Shown here one piece after another: positions 2,257 to 7,403 of a stretch of DNA of 13,772 nt (positions are counted from its first letter, which is position 1; every line of letters begins with the position of its first letter). Under the pieces are notes generated by a model, which did no database searches, was not told the origin of the DNA, and saw only the letters and a list, made by a program, of their open reading frames with translations. A program made the translations under genes and the position numbers. Source of the stretch: Chloroflexota bacterium (lineage in GTDB: Bacteria; Desulfobacterota; Desulfuromonadia; Desulfuromonadales; Geopsychrobacteraceae); assembly GCA_015222355.1 (NCBI GenBank), contig JADFVC010000120.1, positions 1 through 13,772 on the forward strand, given 5' to 3'.

Positions 2257-3738
2257 ATGACTCACAAAGCTACGCCAGATACATTGCCTGACGGGGAGGG
2301 GGCGCGTACGCAACGGGAAGTTGCCCGACTGCGGCTACTCAGTCGGCTGGCCTTCCTTACGGCGACAATTCGCGATCGCGGTTTGCTGCTCAATAAGGTA
2401 TTGCAGCAGTTGCATGAGTTCTATGCTGTCGACAGCTGTGGCATCTATCAGCTGCACGGCCTGGCTTCACCCTTACACCTGATCGCGTCTCTCGGGATCA
2501 GCACAGAGCTGGCCCGTGAATTACAAAAAGTGCCTACCGGCAAAGGCCTGATCGCAGAAGTGGTTAAAACCGGGACGACAAAAAGTTGGCTCGACTTGCA
2601 GCAGGAACCACAGCTCTATTGTCATACCGTTCTGGACGCCGGTTGGCGCGGCTTTCTGGCCCATCCTTTAATCGCCCATGAGCGCCTGCTGGGGGTCATC
2701 TTTTTTTTCCAAAACCACCCACGGCAATTCTCTCTTGAAGAGATTGAACTTCTCGGTCACTGCTGCCAACTCATTGCCGCAGCAATCGATACTGCCGATC
2801 TGGTTGAAAAGCTTGAATGGCAACACCGCCTGACGCATGCTAGTCAACGCGAACTCGATCGTTCCCGCCAACAGTTGCGTGAGCACGTCCACCGCCTCGA
2901 AGAGAGCAACCGCTCACTTGAGCAAGCCAGCCAGATGAAGGACCGCTTCCTGTCTCTGGCTTCCCACGAATTGCGGACCCCCCTGACCTGGATCATGACG
3001 GCAACGGAAATGCTGGAAACCTCCCTGCCCGACCTGCCCGAGGGCTCCCAGTCGCTCTTGGAAACGATTCACAAGGGGAGCAATCGCCTCAACAATCTGG
3101 TCGAAGACTTGTTGGAAATGGCCCGAATTGAGGCACGGGTCATCTACTTGGCCCGCGAAAGTATCGATCTGCAGATGTTCTTGGGGGATCTCGCCAGCCG
3201 GTATGCCGAGGAAACTCTGCGCCGCCGGCTAACCCTCGAAATCGGCAGCATTCCGGAACACATTTCGCCGATTGGCGATCACCATCACCTGCGCCAGGCA
3301 CTGGAAAGAATCCTCAAGAACGCCCTGAAATTTACCCCTCCCGGCGGCGTCATCAAGCTTGAAGCCGTGCACCGAACCAGTGAAGAACTGCGTCAACAAC
3401 AACCGGAGATGGAACCTTTCTGCCCGGAGTTTTTTTGCCGGGAACCCTTACGTGATCATATCGATGTCTGCATTAGCGACAATGGTATCGGCATCGCGGA
3501 ACAGGATCGGCTACAGATTTTCGACAAATTTCATGGTGCGGGGAGTATCAATTTGCACGGCAAACATTATCACTCGGTAGAAGGGCCCAGTGCCGGGCTC
3601 GGCTTGCCGCTGGCCAAGGGGATGATCGAAGCCCATAACGGCATGGTCTGGGTCAGCAGTCCTGCGGACCACCAGAGAGGCAGTTGTTTTCATGTGCTCT
3701 TGCCTCTCTACCTGCCGAATCGACCATCCATTGACTGA
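2257..3738 (+). CDS. Soluble GAF-domain sensor histidine kinase (orphan)
   Basis: A 493-residue cytoplasmic histidine kinase with no signal peptide, membrane segment or receiver domain. Order: a GAF sensor domain (about 42-175), a charged coiled-coil linker (about 178-225), a HisKA domain with SLASHELRTPL in which His237 is the expected phospho-acceptor, and a HATPase_c domain with N box LKNALKFTPPGG (Asn355), G1 box DNGIGI (Asp408), F box IFDKF and G2 box GLGLP (447-451). All catalytic boxes are intact. The frame is open further upstream to an ATG at 2179 inside cinA, but that would add 26 non-conserved residues overlapping cinA; ATG 2257, with AAAGGA at 2241-2246 and a 7-base gap from the cinA stop, is preferred. 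No response regulator is present in the window, so the partner and the GAF ligand are unknown. The stop codon lies in a duplicated 12-bp sequence created by a small insertion. Confidence 0.9.
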   Translation: MTHKATPDTLPDGEGARTQREVARLRLLSRLAFLTATIRDRGLLLNKVLQQLHEFYAVDSCGIYQLHGLASPLHLIASLGISTELARELQKVPTGKGLIAEVVKTGTTKSWLDLQQEPQLYCHTVLDAGWRGFLAHPLIAHERLLGVIFFFQNHPRQFSLEEIELLGHCCQLIAAAIDTADLVEKLEWQHRLTHASQRELDRSRQQLREHVHRLEESNRSLEQASQMKDRFLSLASHELRTPLTWIMTATEMLETSLPDLPEGSQSLLETIHKGSNRLNNLVEDLLEMARIEARVIYLARESIDLQMFLGDLASRYAEETLRRRLTLEIGSIPEHISPIGDHHHLRQALERILKNALKFTPPGGVIKLEAVHRTSEELRQQQPEMEPFCPEFFCREPLRDHIDVCISDNGIGIAEQDRLQIFDKFHGAGSINLHGKHYHSVEGPSAGLGLPLAKGMIEAHNGMVWVSSPADHQRGSCFHVLLPLYLPNRPSID

Positions 3739-3785
3739 TGGCGTCGCCATCGTATTCTTTTTTGCGAGACCATTCCATTGACTGA
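3727..3785 (-). repeat. Short mobile-looking repeat, copy 1, with 10-12 bp flanking duplication (kinase/thpR junction)
   Basis: A core of about 37 bp (3737-3773) is bracketed by a perfect direct repeat TCCATTGACTGA at 3727-3738 and 3774-3785; the final GA on the left may belong to the element, so the duplication is 10-12 bp. Read on the - strand the core contains CTCGCAAAAAAGAATA and then CGATGGCGACGCCATC, which matches the left end of the copy at 5457 (CTCACAAAAAAGAATA then TGATGGC) and the whole copy at 7360. On the + strand the palindrome GATGGCG-T-CGCCATC at 3737-3751 is followed by TATTCTTTTTT, which resembles a weak intrinsic terminator facing thpR and recA. The duplicated sequence holds both the kinase TGA and the thpR TTG. 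The repeat and duplication are read directly; mobility is inferred. Confidence 0.8.
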
Positions 3786-4365
3786 GCCAGAACAAAAACG
3801 CCTACGCTCTTTTATTGCCATTCCCCTGCCGGAGCAGCTGCGGCAAGAGCTTGCCGTCCTGTCACAACAGCTCAGCAGCAGGGTTCCGGAACTGAAACCG
3901 GCTAACATGGAAAACCTGCACCTGACCCTGAATTTTCTTGGCGATCAACCAGCTCAGCTGCTTGCGAAAATCGGTCAAAGCATGCTATCGATAGGACGAA
4001 ACAAAAGAATTTTTAATGTCACGCTGGAGGGGTTGGGGGTTTTTCCACACCGTCGTCGACCCAGGGTTCTCTGGATCGGACTCGAACCACAGCGAGAATT
4101 AATCCAATTGTCCCGGCAACTGGCAAAAGAATTGGAACTTCTGGGGGCACAAATTGACGTACGCCCCTATCACCCGCATCTGACCATTGGCCGATTCAAA
4201 CAACAGCCAAAACAGCTCAAGCTATTGTGTCCTTTTCTGTCACACAGCTGTGGTACCTTAAAAGTCGACAGGATGATCCTGTTCAGCAGCGAACTGACAC
4301 CAAGGGGCGCCATCCACACCCCATTGACTACGGCACATTTTGCCGGCCAATGTTTACTGATTTAG
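3778..4365 (+). CDS. thpR: RNA 2',3'-cyclic phosphodiesterase / 2'-5' RNA ligase (ThpR)
   Basis: A 195-residue member of the 2H phosphoesterase family (LigT/ThpR). The two diagnostic HxT motifs are present: HLTLNFLG with His48 and HLTIGRFK with His134, and the N-terminal FIAIPLPEQL strand is typical. Known activity of the family is hydrolysis of 2',3'-cyclic phosphate RNA ends and, in vitro, 2'-5' ligation of tRNA halves; the physiological substrate is unsettled. The only usable start ahead of the conserved FIAIPL strand is TTG 3778: the frame is closed by the kinase TGA at 3736, no ATG, GTG or other TTG lies between, and the next ATG (codon 44) would remove that strand. The ribosome site is poor (GCGAG at 3764-3768). 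The gene is in the same frame as the kinase, separated by one stop and 13 sense codons. It ends 39 bases before recA, so co-transcription is likely. Confidence 0.9.
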   Translation: MTEPEQKRLRSFIAIPLPEQLRQELAVLSQQLSSRVPELKPANMENLHLTLNFLGDQPAQLLAKIGQSMLSIGRNKRIFNVTLEGLGVFPHRRRPRVLWIGLEPQRELIQLSRQLAKELELLGAQIDVRPYHPHLTIGRFKQQPKQLKLLCPFLSHSCGTLKVDRMILFSSELTPRGAIHTPLTTAHFAGQCLLI

Positions 4366-4404
4366 CAATGCTCATGAGATTCTACAACGCCAAGGGAGAC
4401 AGGC

Positions 4405-5430
4405 ATGTCCGATGAAAACCGCAACCGCGCACTTGAACTGGCCATGGGCCAGATTGAAAAACAGTTTGGAAAAGGGAGCATCATGCGCCTTGGCTCCGAC
4501 TACCAGATGCCGTCAATTGAACGCATTCCGACCGGTGCCTTAAGCCTTGATCTGGCCCTCGGCATCGGCGGTGTTCCCAAGGGACGAATCATCGAGATTT
4601 TCGGCCCGGAATCTTCCGGTAAAACCACCCTGGCCTTGCACATCATTGCCGAAGCACAGAAGCAAGGTGGAATTGCCGCTTTTGTCGATGCCGAACACGC
4701 CCTTGACATCCAGTATGCCGGGCACCTCGGGGTTAAGTCCGATGACCTGCTGGTCAGCCAGCCGGATACCGGTGAACAGGCCTTGGAAATCACCGAGATG
4801 CTGGTCCGCAGCGGTGCCATCGACGTGCTGGTGATCGACTCGGTCGCCGCCCTGACCCCACGTGCCGAGATCGAAGGCGAAATGGGAGATTCACACATGG
4901 GACTCCAGGCCCGGCTGATGTCACAAGCACTGCGTAAACTGACGGCAACCGTCGCCAAATCAAACTGCTGCATCATCTTTATCAACCAGCTGCGCATGAA
5001 GATCGGCGTCATGTTCGGCAACCCGGAGACCACCACCGGTGGCAATGCCTTGAAATTCTACGCCACGATGCGGATGGACATCCGCCGGATTGCTTCACTG
5101 AAATCGGGTCAGGACATTATTGGTGGCCGTACCCGGGTCAAAGTCGTAAAAAACAAGGTGGCCCCACCCTTTAAACAAGCAGAATTTGATATCATGTACG
5201 GAACCGGGATTTCCCGCGAAGGGGATATCCTTGATCTTGGTGTCGATAACGACATCATCGAAAAAAGCGGAGCCTGGTTCTCCTACAACGGAGAACGGGT
5301 TGGCCAGGGCCGGGAAAACGCCAAGCAGTTTCTGAAAGAACACCCGGAAATGACCAACGAAGTCGAAGCTCGCCTCCGTGAACTTTACGGTCTGGGCGAA
5401 GAAGAATCGGTCAGTACTGATGAAAGCTGA
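4405..5430 (+). CDS. recA: RecA recombinase
   Basis: 341 residues, typical RecA length. Role: ATP-dependent strand exchange, and co-protease activity on LexA in the SOS response. Visible features: Walker [10 protein letters not shown] with Gly67 and Lys73, Walker [10 protein letters not shown], the L1 region [20 protein letters not shown], the L2 region [17 protein letters not shown], and an acidic C-terminal tail ending [11 protein letters not shown] strong ribosome site AAGGGAG at 4392-4398 sets the ATG at 4405. Only 39 bases separate it from thpR; I see neither the E. coli CTGT-N8-ACAG LexA box nor a GGTT/ACC-type box of the kind reported for Geobacter in that gap, so any SOS control would have to act further upstream. 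Downstream, a repeat element of about 150 bp separates it from pilT. With recX and alaS it keeps the widespread recA-recX-alaS neighbourhood. Confidence 0.98.
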
Positions 5431-5448
5431 TCACCATATCAGTAACTG
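5412..5448 (+). other. Stem-loop spanning the recA stop codon
   Basis: CAGTACTGAT at 5412-5421 pairs with ATCAGTAACTG at 5438-5448, giving a 10-bp stem with one bulged base and a 16-base loop that contains the recA TGA (5428-5430). There is no T-run after it, so it is not a standard intrinsic terminator. It could affect mRNA decay or processing between recA and pilT, but half of it is coding sequence and it may be fortuitous. Confidence 0.35.
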
Positions 5449-5449
5449 T

Positions 5450-5615
5450 AAAGTCTGATGCACTCACAAAAAAGAATATGATGGCTAAGCAAAAATTTCG
5501 ACCTACAAGGCATAGTGGTTTTTCAGGGGCGAAGGCATACATATGGTATGTCGAGATCCTGAAAAACTGCTGCAACGCCGGAGGACGGACTTTTTGCAAC
5601 GCCATCAAAGTCTGA
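5450..5615 (+). mobile_element. MITE-like repeat, long copy 2 (core 5457-5606) with AAAGTCT(GA) flanking duplication
   Basis: A non-coding core of about 150 bp fills most of the recA-pilT gap. AAAGTCTGA occurs at 5450-5458 and again at 5607-5615, directly abutting the core (7 to 9 bp depending on how the shared GA is assigned). The ends are imperfect inverted repeats: GATGCACTCACAAAAA on the left, and TTTTTGCAACGCCATC on the right, whose reverse complement is GATGGCGTTGCAAAAA; 11 of 16 positions match. The first 29 bp match the copy at 7360-7388 with 5 differences, and the reverse complement of the copy at 3739-3768. The core contains a strong hairpin (5518-5567) and no credible ORF, so it would need a transposase supplied elsewhere. 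Removing the core and one duplication leaves recA and pilT about 40 bases apart with the pilT ribosome site intact. Sequence relations are read directly; transposition is inferred. Confidence 0.8.
5518..5567. repeat. Perfect 10-bp inverted repeat and nested hairpin inside the long element
   Basis: GTTTTTCAGG at 5518-5527 is perfectly complementary to CCTGAAAAAC at 5558-5567. Nested inside is a second perfect pair, CATAC at 5536-5540 and GTATG at 5546-5550, around a 5-base loop ATATG. Together they can form a two-stage hairpin or cruciform at the centre of the element. No T-run follows on the + strand. Confidence 0.7.
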
Positions 5616-5627
5616 CAGGATGGACCT

Positions 5628-6809
5628 ATGAATCTGAACGATATTCTCGGCCTGGCCCTAAAGTCAAATACCTCGGATATCCACCTGAAGGCGGGACTCC
5701 CCCCGGTATTCCGGATTGACGGCAACCTGCGGCCATTACCGAAAACCCCGCGACTCACCGCTGAATCGGTCCGCGACATGTGTCAAGGCATCATGAATGA
5801 GCGCCAACGCGCAACCTTCGATGACCGTTATGAGGTCGATCTGGCTTACGGGGTTCCGGGCCTGGGGCGCTTTCGCGTCAACGTCTTCTCCCAGCGCAAC
5901 TCAGTCTCAGCAGTGTTTCGCGCCATCCCCTACAAGATTGCCACCCTCGATGAACTGTTGATGCCGCCGATTCTGAAAAAAATCTGTACAGAACAACGTG
6001 GTCTGGTGCTGGTCACCGGGGCGACCGGGACCGGGAAATCGACAACTCTGGCGGCGATGATCGATTATATCAACAGCACCCGGACGGCCCACATTGTCAC
6101 CATTGAGGATCCCATTGAATACCTGCACCGCGACCGCAAATGTATCATCAACCAGCGTGAAGTCGGTTTCGACACGGCCGGTTTTGCCCCGGCCCTGAAA
6201 AGCGCCCTGCGGCAGGATCCGGATGTCATCCTGGTCGGAGAAATGCGCGATGTCGAAACCGCGGAAACCGCCCTGGCCGCCGCGGAAACCGGCCACCTGG
6301 TGCTGTCAACCCTGCACACCATCGATGCCCCGGAAACCATCACCCGGATCGTTTCCATGTTTCCGCCGCACCAGCAACGACATATCAGGCTGCAACTTTC
6401 CGGTGTCCTTAAAGGGGTCGTTTCGCAACGCCTGCTCCCCCGCGCGGAAGGCAAAGGACGCGTTGCCGCCGTCGAAGTCATGATTTCAACCGCCCGAATC
6501 CGCGGTCTGATCGATGATCGCGAGAAAACGGCTCAACTCAAAGACGCGATTGCCCAAGGCTACACGACCTACGGGATGCAAACGTTTGACCAGGCACTGA
6601 TGACCCTGGTGAAAAAAGAGGCCATCACCTTCGAAGAAGCCTTGCGGCAGAGTTCCAACCCGGACGATTTCAAGCTCAAGTTCTCCGGAATTGACTCCAC
6701 GTCCGATACCTCATGGAGCGATTTTGAACGCGGCAAGGAACAGGAAAAACTGGCTGAAGAGAATGAAGGTCTGGACACTGATGGGCAAGTCAAAATCGAC
6801 CGCTTCTGA
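5628..6809 (+). CDS. pilT: PilT-family type IV pilus retraction ATPase
   Basis: A 393-residue hexameric secretion-type ATPase of the PilT/PilU branch; in the family it powers pilus retraction from the cytoplasmic side of the membrane, and hence twitching or DNA uptake. Features: an N-terminal PAS-like region starting LNDILGLALKSNTSDIHLKA, Walker A GATGTGKST with Lys137, Asp box VTIEDPIEYLH, Walker B DVILVGEMRD with catalytic Glu205, and His box TGHLVLSTLHT. The helix that is AIRNLIRE in typical PilT reads RIRGLIDD here, and a polar, acidic tail of about 40 residues follows the ATPase fold, making the protein longer than the common 344-residue PilT. This suggests one of several paralogues rather than the main retraction motor. 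AGGA at 5617-5620 sets the ATG at 5628. The 3' end overlaps recX by 29 bases. Confidence 0.92.
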   Translation: MNLNDILGLALKSNTSDIHLKAGLPPVFRIDGNLRPLPKTPRLTAESVRDMCQGIMNERQRATFDDRYEVDLAYGVPGLGRFRVNVFSQRNSVSAVFRAIPYKIATLDELLMPPILKKICTEQRGLVLVTGATGTGKSTTLAAMIDYINSTRTAHIVTIEDPIEYLHRDRKCIINQREVGFDTAGFAPALKSALRQDPDVILVGEMRDVETAETALAAAETGHLVLSTLHTIDAPETITRIVSMFPPHQQRHIRLQLSGVLKGVVSQRLLPRAEGKGRVAAVEVMISTARIRGLIDDREKTAQLKDAIAQGYTTYGMQTFDQALMTLVKKEAITFEEALRQSSNPDDFKLKFSGIDSTSDTSWSDFERGKEQEKLAEENEGLDTDGQVKIDRF

Positions 6810-7257
6810 CCCTTTTGCCGCAGCCCTGCGGCTGCTCACCCGGCGCGACCGGAGCGAAGCCGAACTGCGCGATAAGCTCAACCAGTTCGGCTTTTCTGCA
6901 TCTCAAGTCGCTGCGGCCATCAAAAAATGTCACGACTATAACTATCTGGATGACCGCCGATTCGCCCAAGAAAGAGCCCGCGCCCTGATGCGCAGTGGCC
7001 GCGGGATCGGCCCAAAAGTCCTGCTCGACTTGCGTAGACGGGGCATTGACGAATCTCTGGCCAGGCAAACCCTGGAAACAGTCAGCCGCGAATTTGACCC
7101 CCGGCAGTTGTTACGCAAAAAGCTGACAAGTCGCTACCCCGGTTTCAGCTACCAGGGTGCCGATGAAAAGGAACGCCGCCGCGTGATCGGCTATTTTCAG
7201 CGCCGGGGATTTCCCCTGGAATCGATCTTCGCAGTCCTGAAAGAATCTCCGCAATAG
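6781..7257 (+). CDS. recX: RecX, regulator of RecA
   Basis: 158 residues with the three-helix repeats of RecX: FAAALRLLTRRDRSEAELRD, then a YLDDRRFAQERARALM segment and GIGPKVLLDLRRRGID, and a basic C-terminal repeat with RRRVIGYFQRRGF. Known role: binds RecA filaments and limits or caps their growth and ATPase activity. The frame is open upstream to 6691, but those 30 codons lie inside pilT and are not RecX-like. ATG 6781 begins just before the first conserved helix and has GAAGG at 6765-6769, so it is preferred; ATG 6763 is the alternative. The 29-base overlap with pilT implies coupled translation. The recA-recX pair is split here by pilT. A gap of 158 bases to alaS holds a short repeat and no visible terminator. 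Confidence 0.9.
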   Translation: MGKSKSTASDPFAAALRLLTRRDRSEAELRDKLNQFGFSASQVAAAIKKCHDYNYLDDRRFAQERARALMRSGRGIGPKVLLDLRRRGIDESLARQTLETVSREFDPRQLLRKKLTSRYPGFSYQGADEKERRRVIGYFQRRGFPLESIFAVLKESPQ

Positions 7258-7352
7258 GCGGGTGACCGAAAATCCTTTTCAATCTCGGCATCTTCAATTA
7301 TTATCCCACATTCAATCACGCAAAACTCAACGGTTAGCCGTTTCAATAGAAC

Positions 7353-7403
7353 CACAGAAGATGCACTCGCAAAAAGCCATAAGATGGCGTCGCCAGCACA
7401 GAA
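7353..7403 (+). repeat. Short mobile-looking repeat, copy 3, with CACAGAA flanking duplication (recX/alaS junction)
   Basis: A 37-bp core at 7360-7396, beginning GATGCACTCGCAAAAAGC and ending with GATGGCG-T-CGCCAG, is bracketed by CACAGAA at 7353-7359 and 7397-7403 (6 or 7 bp, because the first C may be the last base of the element). The core matches copy 2 over its first 29 bp, and the reverse complement of copy 1 over 37 bp without gaps. Removing the core and one repeat restores a continuous GAACCACAGAAAGG before the alaS start. The palindrome lies at 7383-7395. Repeat and duplication are read directly; mobility is inferred. Confidence 0.75.

Follow-up and report, generated by a model that had tools for sequence, protein, structure and literature searches.

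The window analysed here is the whole 13,772-nucleotide contig JADFVC010000120.1 of assembly GCA_015222355.1, which is contig C17 of the organism's own genome (G000), a 1.98-Mb draft in 445 contigs. We found that it contains three related repeats, each bracketed by perfect direct repeats (Table 1), that are probably copies of a non-autonomous DNA transposon resembling miniature inverted-repeat transposable elements (MITEs). This element would be moved by a helper acting in trans and would lose its hairpin in place. One copy is full-length, and the other two are stubs of 37-38 bp without the hairpin. Family-wide, insertion with target duplication is well supported.

In the proposed mechanism, the full form comprises an outer left end GATGNNNTCGCAAAAA, a linker of about 7 nt and a 127-bp imperfect palindrome with the right end in its 3′ arm. 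A DDE-type transposase supplied in trans would make cuts staggered by 6 or 7 bp in a symmetric target, A A/T N N (N) A/T T, and each insertion would thereby gain a duplication of 6 or 7 bp. The hairpin would often be lost in place after insertion, the simplest route being slippage of replication between the short GC repeats that lie at its base, and the product would be a stub of about 38 bp with a 15-nt palindrome. We take the helper to be a DDE enzyme because of the target duplication.

An earlier note, made from the window's letters, had recognized three copies with flanking direct repeats in three gene junctions, and all are present. Its coordinates hold for the first two copies, but the third ends at 7397 (38 bp) and not at 7396. 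The note had also assigned one left end, GATGCACTC, to all three; the copy at 3737-3773 has a variant of it instead. The direct repeats are specific to each site, as it had described, but the extra GA that it counted at the first two sites is the element's own first GA. The lengths become 10, 7 and 6 bp because this GA is left out.

Anatomy of the full-length element

The long form of 150 bp consists of a 16-bp end, a linker of about 7 nt and a hairpin of 127 bp, and the far arm of this hairpin forms the other end. Folded as DNA, the 127-nt hairpin stands behind a 23-nt leader that holds the outer left end, with a z-score of -5.0 and none of 200 shuffles as stable. Standard pairs fill 95.5% of the paired cells across 50 distinct, oriented long copies, versus 93.9% in shuffles. 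Double changes occur at 10 pairs (maximum of 7 in 200 shuffles) and in 40 cells (versus 16 in shuffles), where the shuffles take no account of kinship among copies. When partners are slid by 1-3 columns, 41-46% of cells are paired and at most 7 pairs have double changes.

The inner left arm starts with GATGGCTAAGCAAAAA, which resembles a second end. We considered a 127-bp hairpin that moves alone and rejected it. None of 69 cores has a duplication of at least 3 bp at the inner boundary, tested at one offset, whereas 44 of the 69 have one of at least 6 bp near the outer boundary, taken as the best over 14 offsets. The mobile unit therefore includes the leader.

Several properties expected of a MITE are present. 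Inverted GATGNNNTCGCAAAAA-type ends lie at both outer boundaries, the element is short and multi-copy, its 150-bp core leaves no room for a transposase gene, and its flanking duplications belong to a constant length class of 6 or 7 bp. The window gave no Rfam match at gathering thresholds, and thus none to a known structured RNA.

Target duplication

We scored 91 complete copies, which were found by two end patterns in the fetched loci and are distinct by 25+25 flanking bases. Orthologous copies with slightly different flanks are counted separately, and not all 91 are independent; two further copies of 127-132 bp were excluded. An exact flanking duplication of 6 or 7 bp is present in 66 of the copies (47 of 6 bp and 19 of 7 bp), with about 2 expected. 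It lies at the boundaries of 45 of 62 long copies (140-160 bp) and 21 of 29 short ones, versus 1.1 and 1.2, respectively, from re-paired flanks. The duplicated sequence begins with A in 59 cases and ends with T in 60, so that the target is symmetric; pyrimidines are commoner before it and purines after it.

The earlier note had considered the varying duplication length unusual for a single transposase. The lengths do vary in the window, but family-wide the mixture of 6 and 7 bp is not unusual. The 10-bp duplication at the window's first copy is an outlier in this family, and the copy is outside the 91 because its end starts with A. We considered whether its duplication is really 7 bp plus a chance likeness between flank and element end. 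Around the corresponding copy in G002, the right-hand duplicate has one base changed and 8 bases still match, which is not decisive.

Empty sites in related genomes

The flanks of 20 own-genome sites and of nine further sites were searched in two genomes of the same genus, G008 and G002, and the second set also in G000. Sixteen of the 20 aligned and one (C404a) was read separately, with C404b, C442 and C368 outside the comparison; seven of the nine aligned and the other two had no usable orthologue. For the test we selected the 12 sites at which a relative looked empty.

In 14 of 15 comparisons, covering 11 of the 12 sites, the best-scoring join has a single target copy rather than two or none. 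The twelfth site, C117 of G002, is rearranged and so could not be scored. Two of the margins, those for C345 and for C400 compared with G008, are just 2 points. At C345 and at C349 of G008, the two flank copies differ by at least one base; C149 lies within an A-run, and the C227 alignment has three gaps. Sites C187, C315 and C155 could not be assigned to the empty, long or short class, being too rearranged or decayed. Two flank copies without a core, the pattern that the earlier note had set against insertion, were not seen in relatives at the 12 sites. Its proposal of insertion with target duplication is borne out by these sites and by the duplications of the 91 copies.

Evidence from empty sites is weak for the three copies in the window itself. 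Between the recX-like gene and alaS, the distant relative G007 fits one target copy slightly better than two (93 versus 91) and G004 shows the reverse (64 versus 67). At the other two sites, the relatives that lack the element are too divergent to judge.

One T-rich target holds copies in opposite orientations and with different linkers in G000 (C227, locus L015) and G008 (C75, L100), which may reflect independent insertion at a hot spot or inversion in place. In G002, other repeat-like insertions adjoin elements of this family at L081/L094, L136 (C231) and L105 (C238); one begins with TGTCCTGTCATG and one has CATCCGGA...TCCGGATG. The C155 site in G002 (L096, C70) carries similar ends around a different, shorter interior, with a total of about 73 bp.

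Proposed hairpin loss and short copies

The same site can hold different forms in different species. The copy at C113 is long in G000 and 39 bp in G008, and that at C404a is long in G000 and 38 bp in G002. C345 is long in G000, about 37 bp in G002, where it adjoins another insertion, and empty in G008. C19 is long in G000 and about 49 bp in both G008 and G002. Between recA and pilT, the G008 copy is about 114 bp shorter than that of G000 and lacks the right end; G002 has a similar remnant, perhaps from one event. At C321a each of the three species has a short copy, but the centres differ: GAC, TAA and CGA. From these long/short differences we infer recurrent loss of the hairpin in place. The opposite change, in which 112 bp would be gained precisely at that same point, is less likely, as it could be guided by just about 30 and 9 bases.

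At its base, the hairpin reads GATGGC-TAAGC-AAAAA...TTTTTGC-GACGC-CATC. A deletion from the first to the third GC yields GATGGCGACGCCATC, and one from the second to the fourth yields GATGGCTAAGCCATC; these are the two commonest stubs. Replication slippage at the bases of hairpins is established in bacteria. In eight of nine genomes, 47 short copies match the pattern CAAAAA-N5-12-GATGGCNNNGCCATC. Their centres are GAC (28 copies), TAA (7), GTC (4), TAT (3), TGA (2) and TTA, TAC and GGC (1 each); GAC and TAA are those that GC-to-GC deletions predict.

Search for a helper transposase

We found no parent insertion sequence (IS) for this family. Such an IS was sought in end lists as two otherwise unpaired inward ends 0.6-3.5 kb apart. 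No such pair occurs in the full lists of G009, G012, G021, G034 and G039 or in 16 of 31 entries for G026; an inward pair in C72 of G012 was dismissed because its ends belong to two separate copies. The fetched loci contain 284 distinct ends, and none shared with a transposase-encoding parent IS was found among them. Five loci have inward end pairs 0.6-3.5 kb apart. Four of these (L072, L221, L079 and L167) contain ordinary genes or separate mini-elements, and in the fifth, L114, which has two inward pairs, the open reading frames (ORFs) beside both unpaired ends were scanned.

Clustering of 667 ORFs near ends gave no transposase among the 40 largest clusters, as far as visual inspection of the first 60 residues showed. 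A partner is missing for 158 ends; 62 of these have no hairpin or stub behind them, and 33 of the 62 lie beside an ORF of at least 150 aa. A Pfam scan of 30 of the 32 distinct ORFs beside such ends found no transposase (19 had families and 11 had none; the scan excluded L045, located at pilT, and L076, which overlaps with the L066 cluster). The sole recombinase among the scanned ORFs is an integrase-family protein in L167, which we read as XerC. The ISNCY model (NF033593) had no match over its cut-off in eight carrier genomes; four of them have matches below it, and the end motif is in none of five fetched loci. The parent IS may be lost or unassembled, or may have divergent ends.

The earlier note had asked for a full-length IS with the same ends, and none was found in the genomes and loci examined. 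Movement in trans, which it also proposed, is something we infer as well.

Alternative explanations

Several observations weigh against insertion of a mobile element followed by hairpin loss. The search just described found no transposase or full-length partner with these ends. The three genomes compared (G000, G008 and G002) are fragmented drafts, with 445 contigs in G000 and 260 and 360 in the two relatives. Presence and absence conflict among sites: C98 and C345 are empty in G008 and filled in G002, and C418 and C227 show the reverse. Precise excision or exchange between species may lie behind the conflicting sites, which were compared without a tree. The C227 copy is moreover inverted in G008 relative to G000. 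Among the 91 copies, 25 have no exact duplication of 6-7 bp: 16 score 0 (12 long and 4 short), eight score 1-5 and one, a short copy in G034, scores 10. As to the stubs, 12 of the 47 centres are neither GAC nor TAA and need further mutation or other junctions, and the pattern used favours 15-nt stubs, with the copy between recX and alaS (which ends in GCCAGC) outside the 47. Finally, six short copies (C41 of G000; C69, C302 and C349 of G008; C68 and C117 of G002) occupy sites that are empty in at least one relative, with C41 and C349 empty in both, and no long form is known there. These six may have moved as stubs.

The stubs themselves could be mobile, if the helper recognises GATGNNNTCGCAAAAA at one end and GATGGCGWCGC at the other, and could transpose, as one of the smallest units among DNA transposons, besides arising by hairpin loss. 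This idea, which we hold as possible but doubtful, gains from the six sites, from the exact duplications around short copies and from one 38-mer that is identical at three sites (C69 and C302 of G008 and C321 of G000). On the other hand, the stub's right end lacks the A-run of the full right end (though long copies were selected by a motif that includes this run), shortening in place was seen by comparison at five sites, and private short copies could be long insertions that rapidly lost the hairpin. A stronger version would make hairpin loss a step of the life cycle, in which the 150-bp form inserts and collapses via the same junctions in many species and the 38-bp stub is still mobile; we regard it as rather improbable.

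REPINs, which are built from repetitive extragenic palindromic (REP) sequences, have inverted end motifs around a hairpin, lie between genes, are moved in trans by RAYT proteins and are not known to duplicate their target. A repeat of this type, moved by a RAYT (Y1, HUH) transposase that acts on single-stranded hairpins, would account for the hairpin architecture, the end motif on both sides and the intergenic position, and Y1 genes have matches in 37 of 41 genomes, including G000. However, the present family has target duplications, and to our knowledge duplications of 6-7 bp are not expected of Y1 enzymes. Y1 genes are also equally common in repeat-free genomes (G003 has nine matches and no repeat), and the end motif is absent from the flanks of all 30 Y1 loci fetched, out of 146 matches. 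Given that there is no linkage in the 30 loci and that Y1 presence does not track the repeat, we rejected a Y1/RAYT helper and consider this origin very improbable. It is more improbable still that the flanking repeats existed beforehand and that homologous or illegitimate recombination between short repeats created or spread the cores, with no transposition involved. This scenario would fit the lack of a clean empty relative at any of the three window sites, and rearrangement inside or beside copies does occur (C315). It does not explain the single flank copy at 11 of 12 empty sites, the predominance of duplications of exactly 6 or 7 bp or the constant target pattern.

Distribution of the family

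As the earlier note had suggested, the whole genome was searched with the 150-bp core, which gave 41 BLAST matches in G000; as scores were obtained for 40 of the 82 candidates, this is a lower bound. The end motif GATGCACTCRCAAAAA, with at most two mismatches, occurs 71 times in this genome, versus 4 times for the reversed control. At least 14 of the 41 matches stop within one base of a contig end, and for this reason we conclude that the family fragments the assembly. In G002, contig C90 (positions 1-280) opens with an inverted duplication centred on a copy, perhaps an assembly artefact caused by the hairpin.

The exact end pattern is present in 25 of 41 genomes, including G000; 13 have at least five matches and 12 have 1-4. 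In the same genus, G009, G002 and G008 have 41, 97 and 122 matches, respectively, and the pattern is absent from six members. A 17-base string from the right end occurs in three of 118 genomes across the phylum, again including G000. A 19-mer scan of named genomes gave at least 113 stretches, and the 80 titles viewed are mostly of Desulfuromonadales, Desulfobulbales and Desulfobacterales. A match in 'Bacterium BMS3Bbin05' has the same element layout with a divergent interior. Two cyanobacterial matches lack the remainder of the element and are probably due to chance. The core had no match in plasmid or phage collections, and one locus among viral contigs matches.

A divergent subfamily keeps the ends and a roughly equal hairpin length, with a different interior and a longer leader. 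The leader is about 28 nt in L170, L185 and L234, and the different interior is seen in L183, L189 and L234.

Features and gene context in the window

Table 1. Parts of the three repeat copies in the window and their surroundings
Feature	Position	Strand	Remarks
Left copy of flanking duplication TCCATTGACT, 10 bp	3727..3736	.	End of histidine-kinase-like gene
Short 37-bp copy, end variant ATGGTCTCGCAAAAA, stub GATGGCGACGCCATC	3737..3773	-	Same copy in G002
Right copy of TCCATTGACT	3774..3783	.	Holds TTG start of ORF 3778-4365 (RNA 2',3'-cyclic phosphodiesterase, thpR)
Left copy of target duplication AAAGTCT (7 bp)	5450..5456	.	
Full-length 150-bp element, between recA and pilT	5457..5606	+	At least 41 matches in own genome
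Outer left end GATGCACTCACAAAAA, the end used in transposition	5457..5472	+	Duplications near outer, not inner, boundary
127-bp hairpin, right end carried in its 3′ arm	5480..5606	+	Fold z -5.0; covariation
Right end, inverted, GATGGCGTTGCAAAAA	5591..5606	-	
Right copy of target duplication AAAGTCT	5607..5613	.	
Left copy of target duplication ACAGAA (6 bp)	7354..7359	.	
Short 38-bp copy, stub GATGGCGTCGCCAGC, between recX-like gene and alaS	7360..7397	+	Same copy in G008; diverged in G002
Right copy of target duplication ACAGAA	7398..7403	.	

Adjoining the copies are thpR, recA, alaS, a gene of the pilT family and two more genes: one for a sensor histidine kinase, for which no model passed its cut-off, and one resembling recX, with a match below the cut-off. 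Between the kinase gene and thpR, the target spans the overlapping upstream stop (TGA, 3736-3738) and downstream TTG start (3778-3780), and G004 has an uninterrupted ATGACTGAG at this place. Each gene kept its own signal because insertion duplicated this stop/start target.

The long element (5480-5606 in the window; L218 and L243) can be read as an open frame, beginning MAKQKFRPTR... in relatives, that continues into flanking DNA. It is possibly a source of spurious gene calls.

Relation to known elements

Four core strings of the element had no occurrence in the literature searched, and we found no literature that joins Desulfuromonas, MITE and inverted repeat. Among described elements, Chunjie of Geobacter uraniireducens is a MITE of 178-235 bp, according to a review (PMC10969869). 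Both families are short and multi-copy, lie mostly between genes, have terminal inverted repeats and direct repeats, and include size variants as well as partial copies. They differ in size, the window family being 150 bp with stubs of about 38 bp, in a comparison by description only (PMC10969869). The review's text has Chunjie-1 disrupting an operon, and the title of the original that it cites speaks of an insertion into an operon whose structure is undisturbed.

Multicopy nucleotide sequences are also mentioned for Pelobacter carbinolicus (PMC3543383) and Geobacter bemidjiensis (PMC2996986). Like the window family, they are multi-copy, intergenic and from the same wider bacterial group, and some of those in G. 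bemidjiensis are palindromic. Insertion is mentioned for G. bemidjiensis; the available excerpts of the two papers describe neither target duplication nor hairpin loss (PMC2996986, PMC3543383). By description, the only basis of this comparison, the window family may already be catalogued among these sequences or elsewhere.

The IS982 family has direct repeats of variable length, given as 7 bp in one table row (PMC7335449), so a mixture of 6 and 7 bp is not odd for one enzyme. IS982 inverted repeats have conserved 5′-AC-3′ ends, whereas the ends of the window family begin with GATG (PMC7335449).

Significance

The family is a known kind of mini-transposon, with an asymmetric build of one end plus a hairpin and an apparently recurrent loss of the hairpin that leaves a stub. 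It offers a natural record of palindrome loss in bacteria, in which one insertion is found long, as a stub, as a remnant or empty across sister species, and from which rates of insertion and hairpin loss could be measured. The copy upstream of thpR illustrates how an element can insert into a gene overlap and leave both frames intact, when its duplication covers the overlapping stop and start codons. For some genomes of the order the family is an abundant marker, and it explains contig breaks in the draft studied here. It points to a helper transposase with a 6-7 bp stagger. If hairpin loss were indeed a step of the life cycle, the two-state element would be among the smallest DNA transposons and would be driven by a transposase family not yet tied to any MITE.

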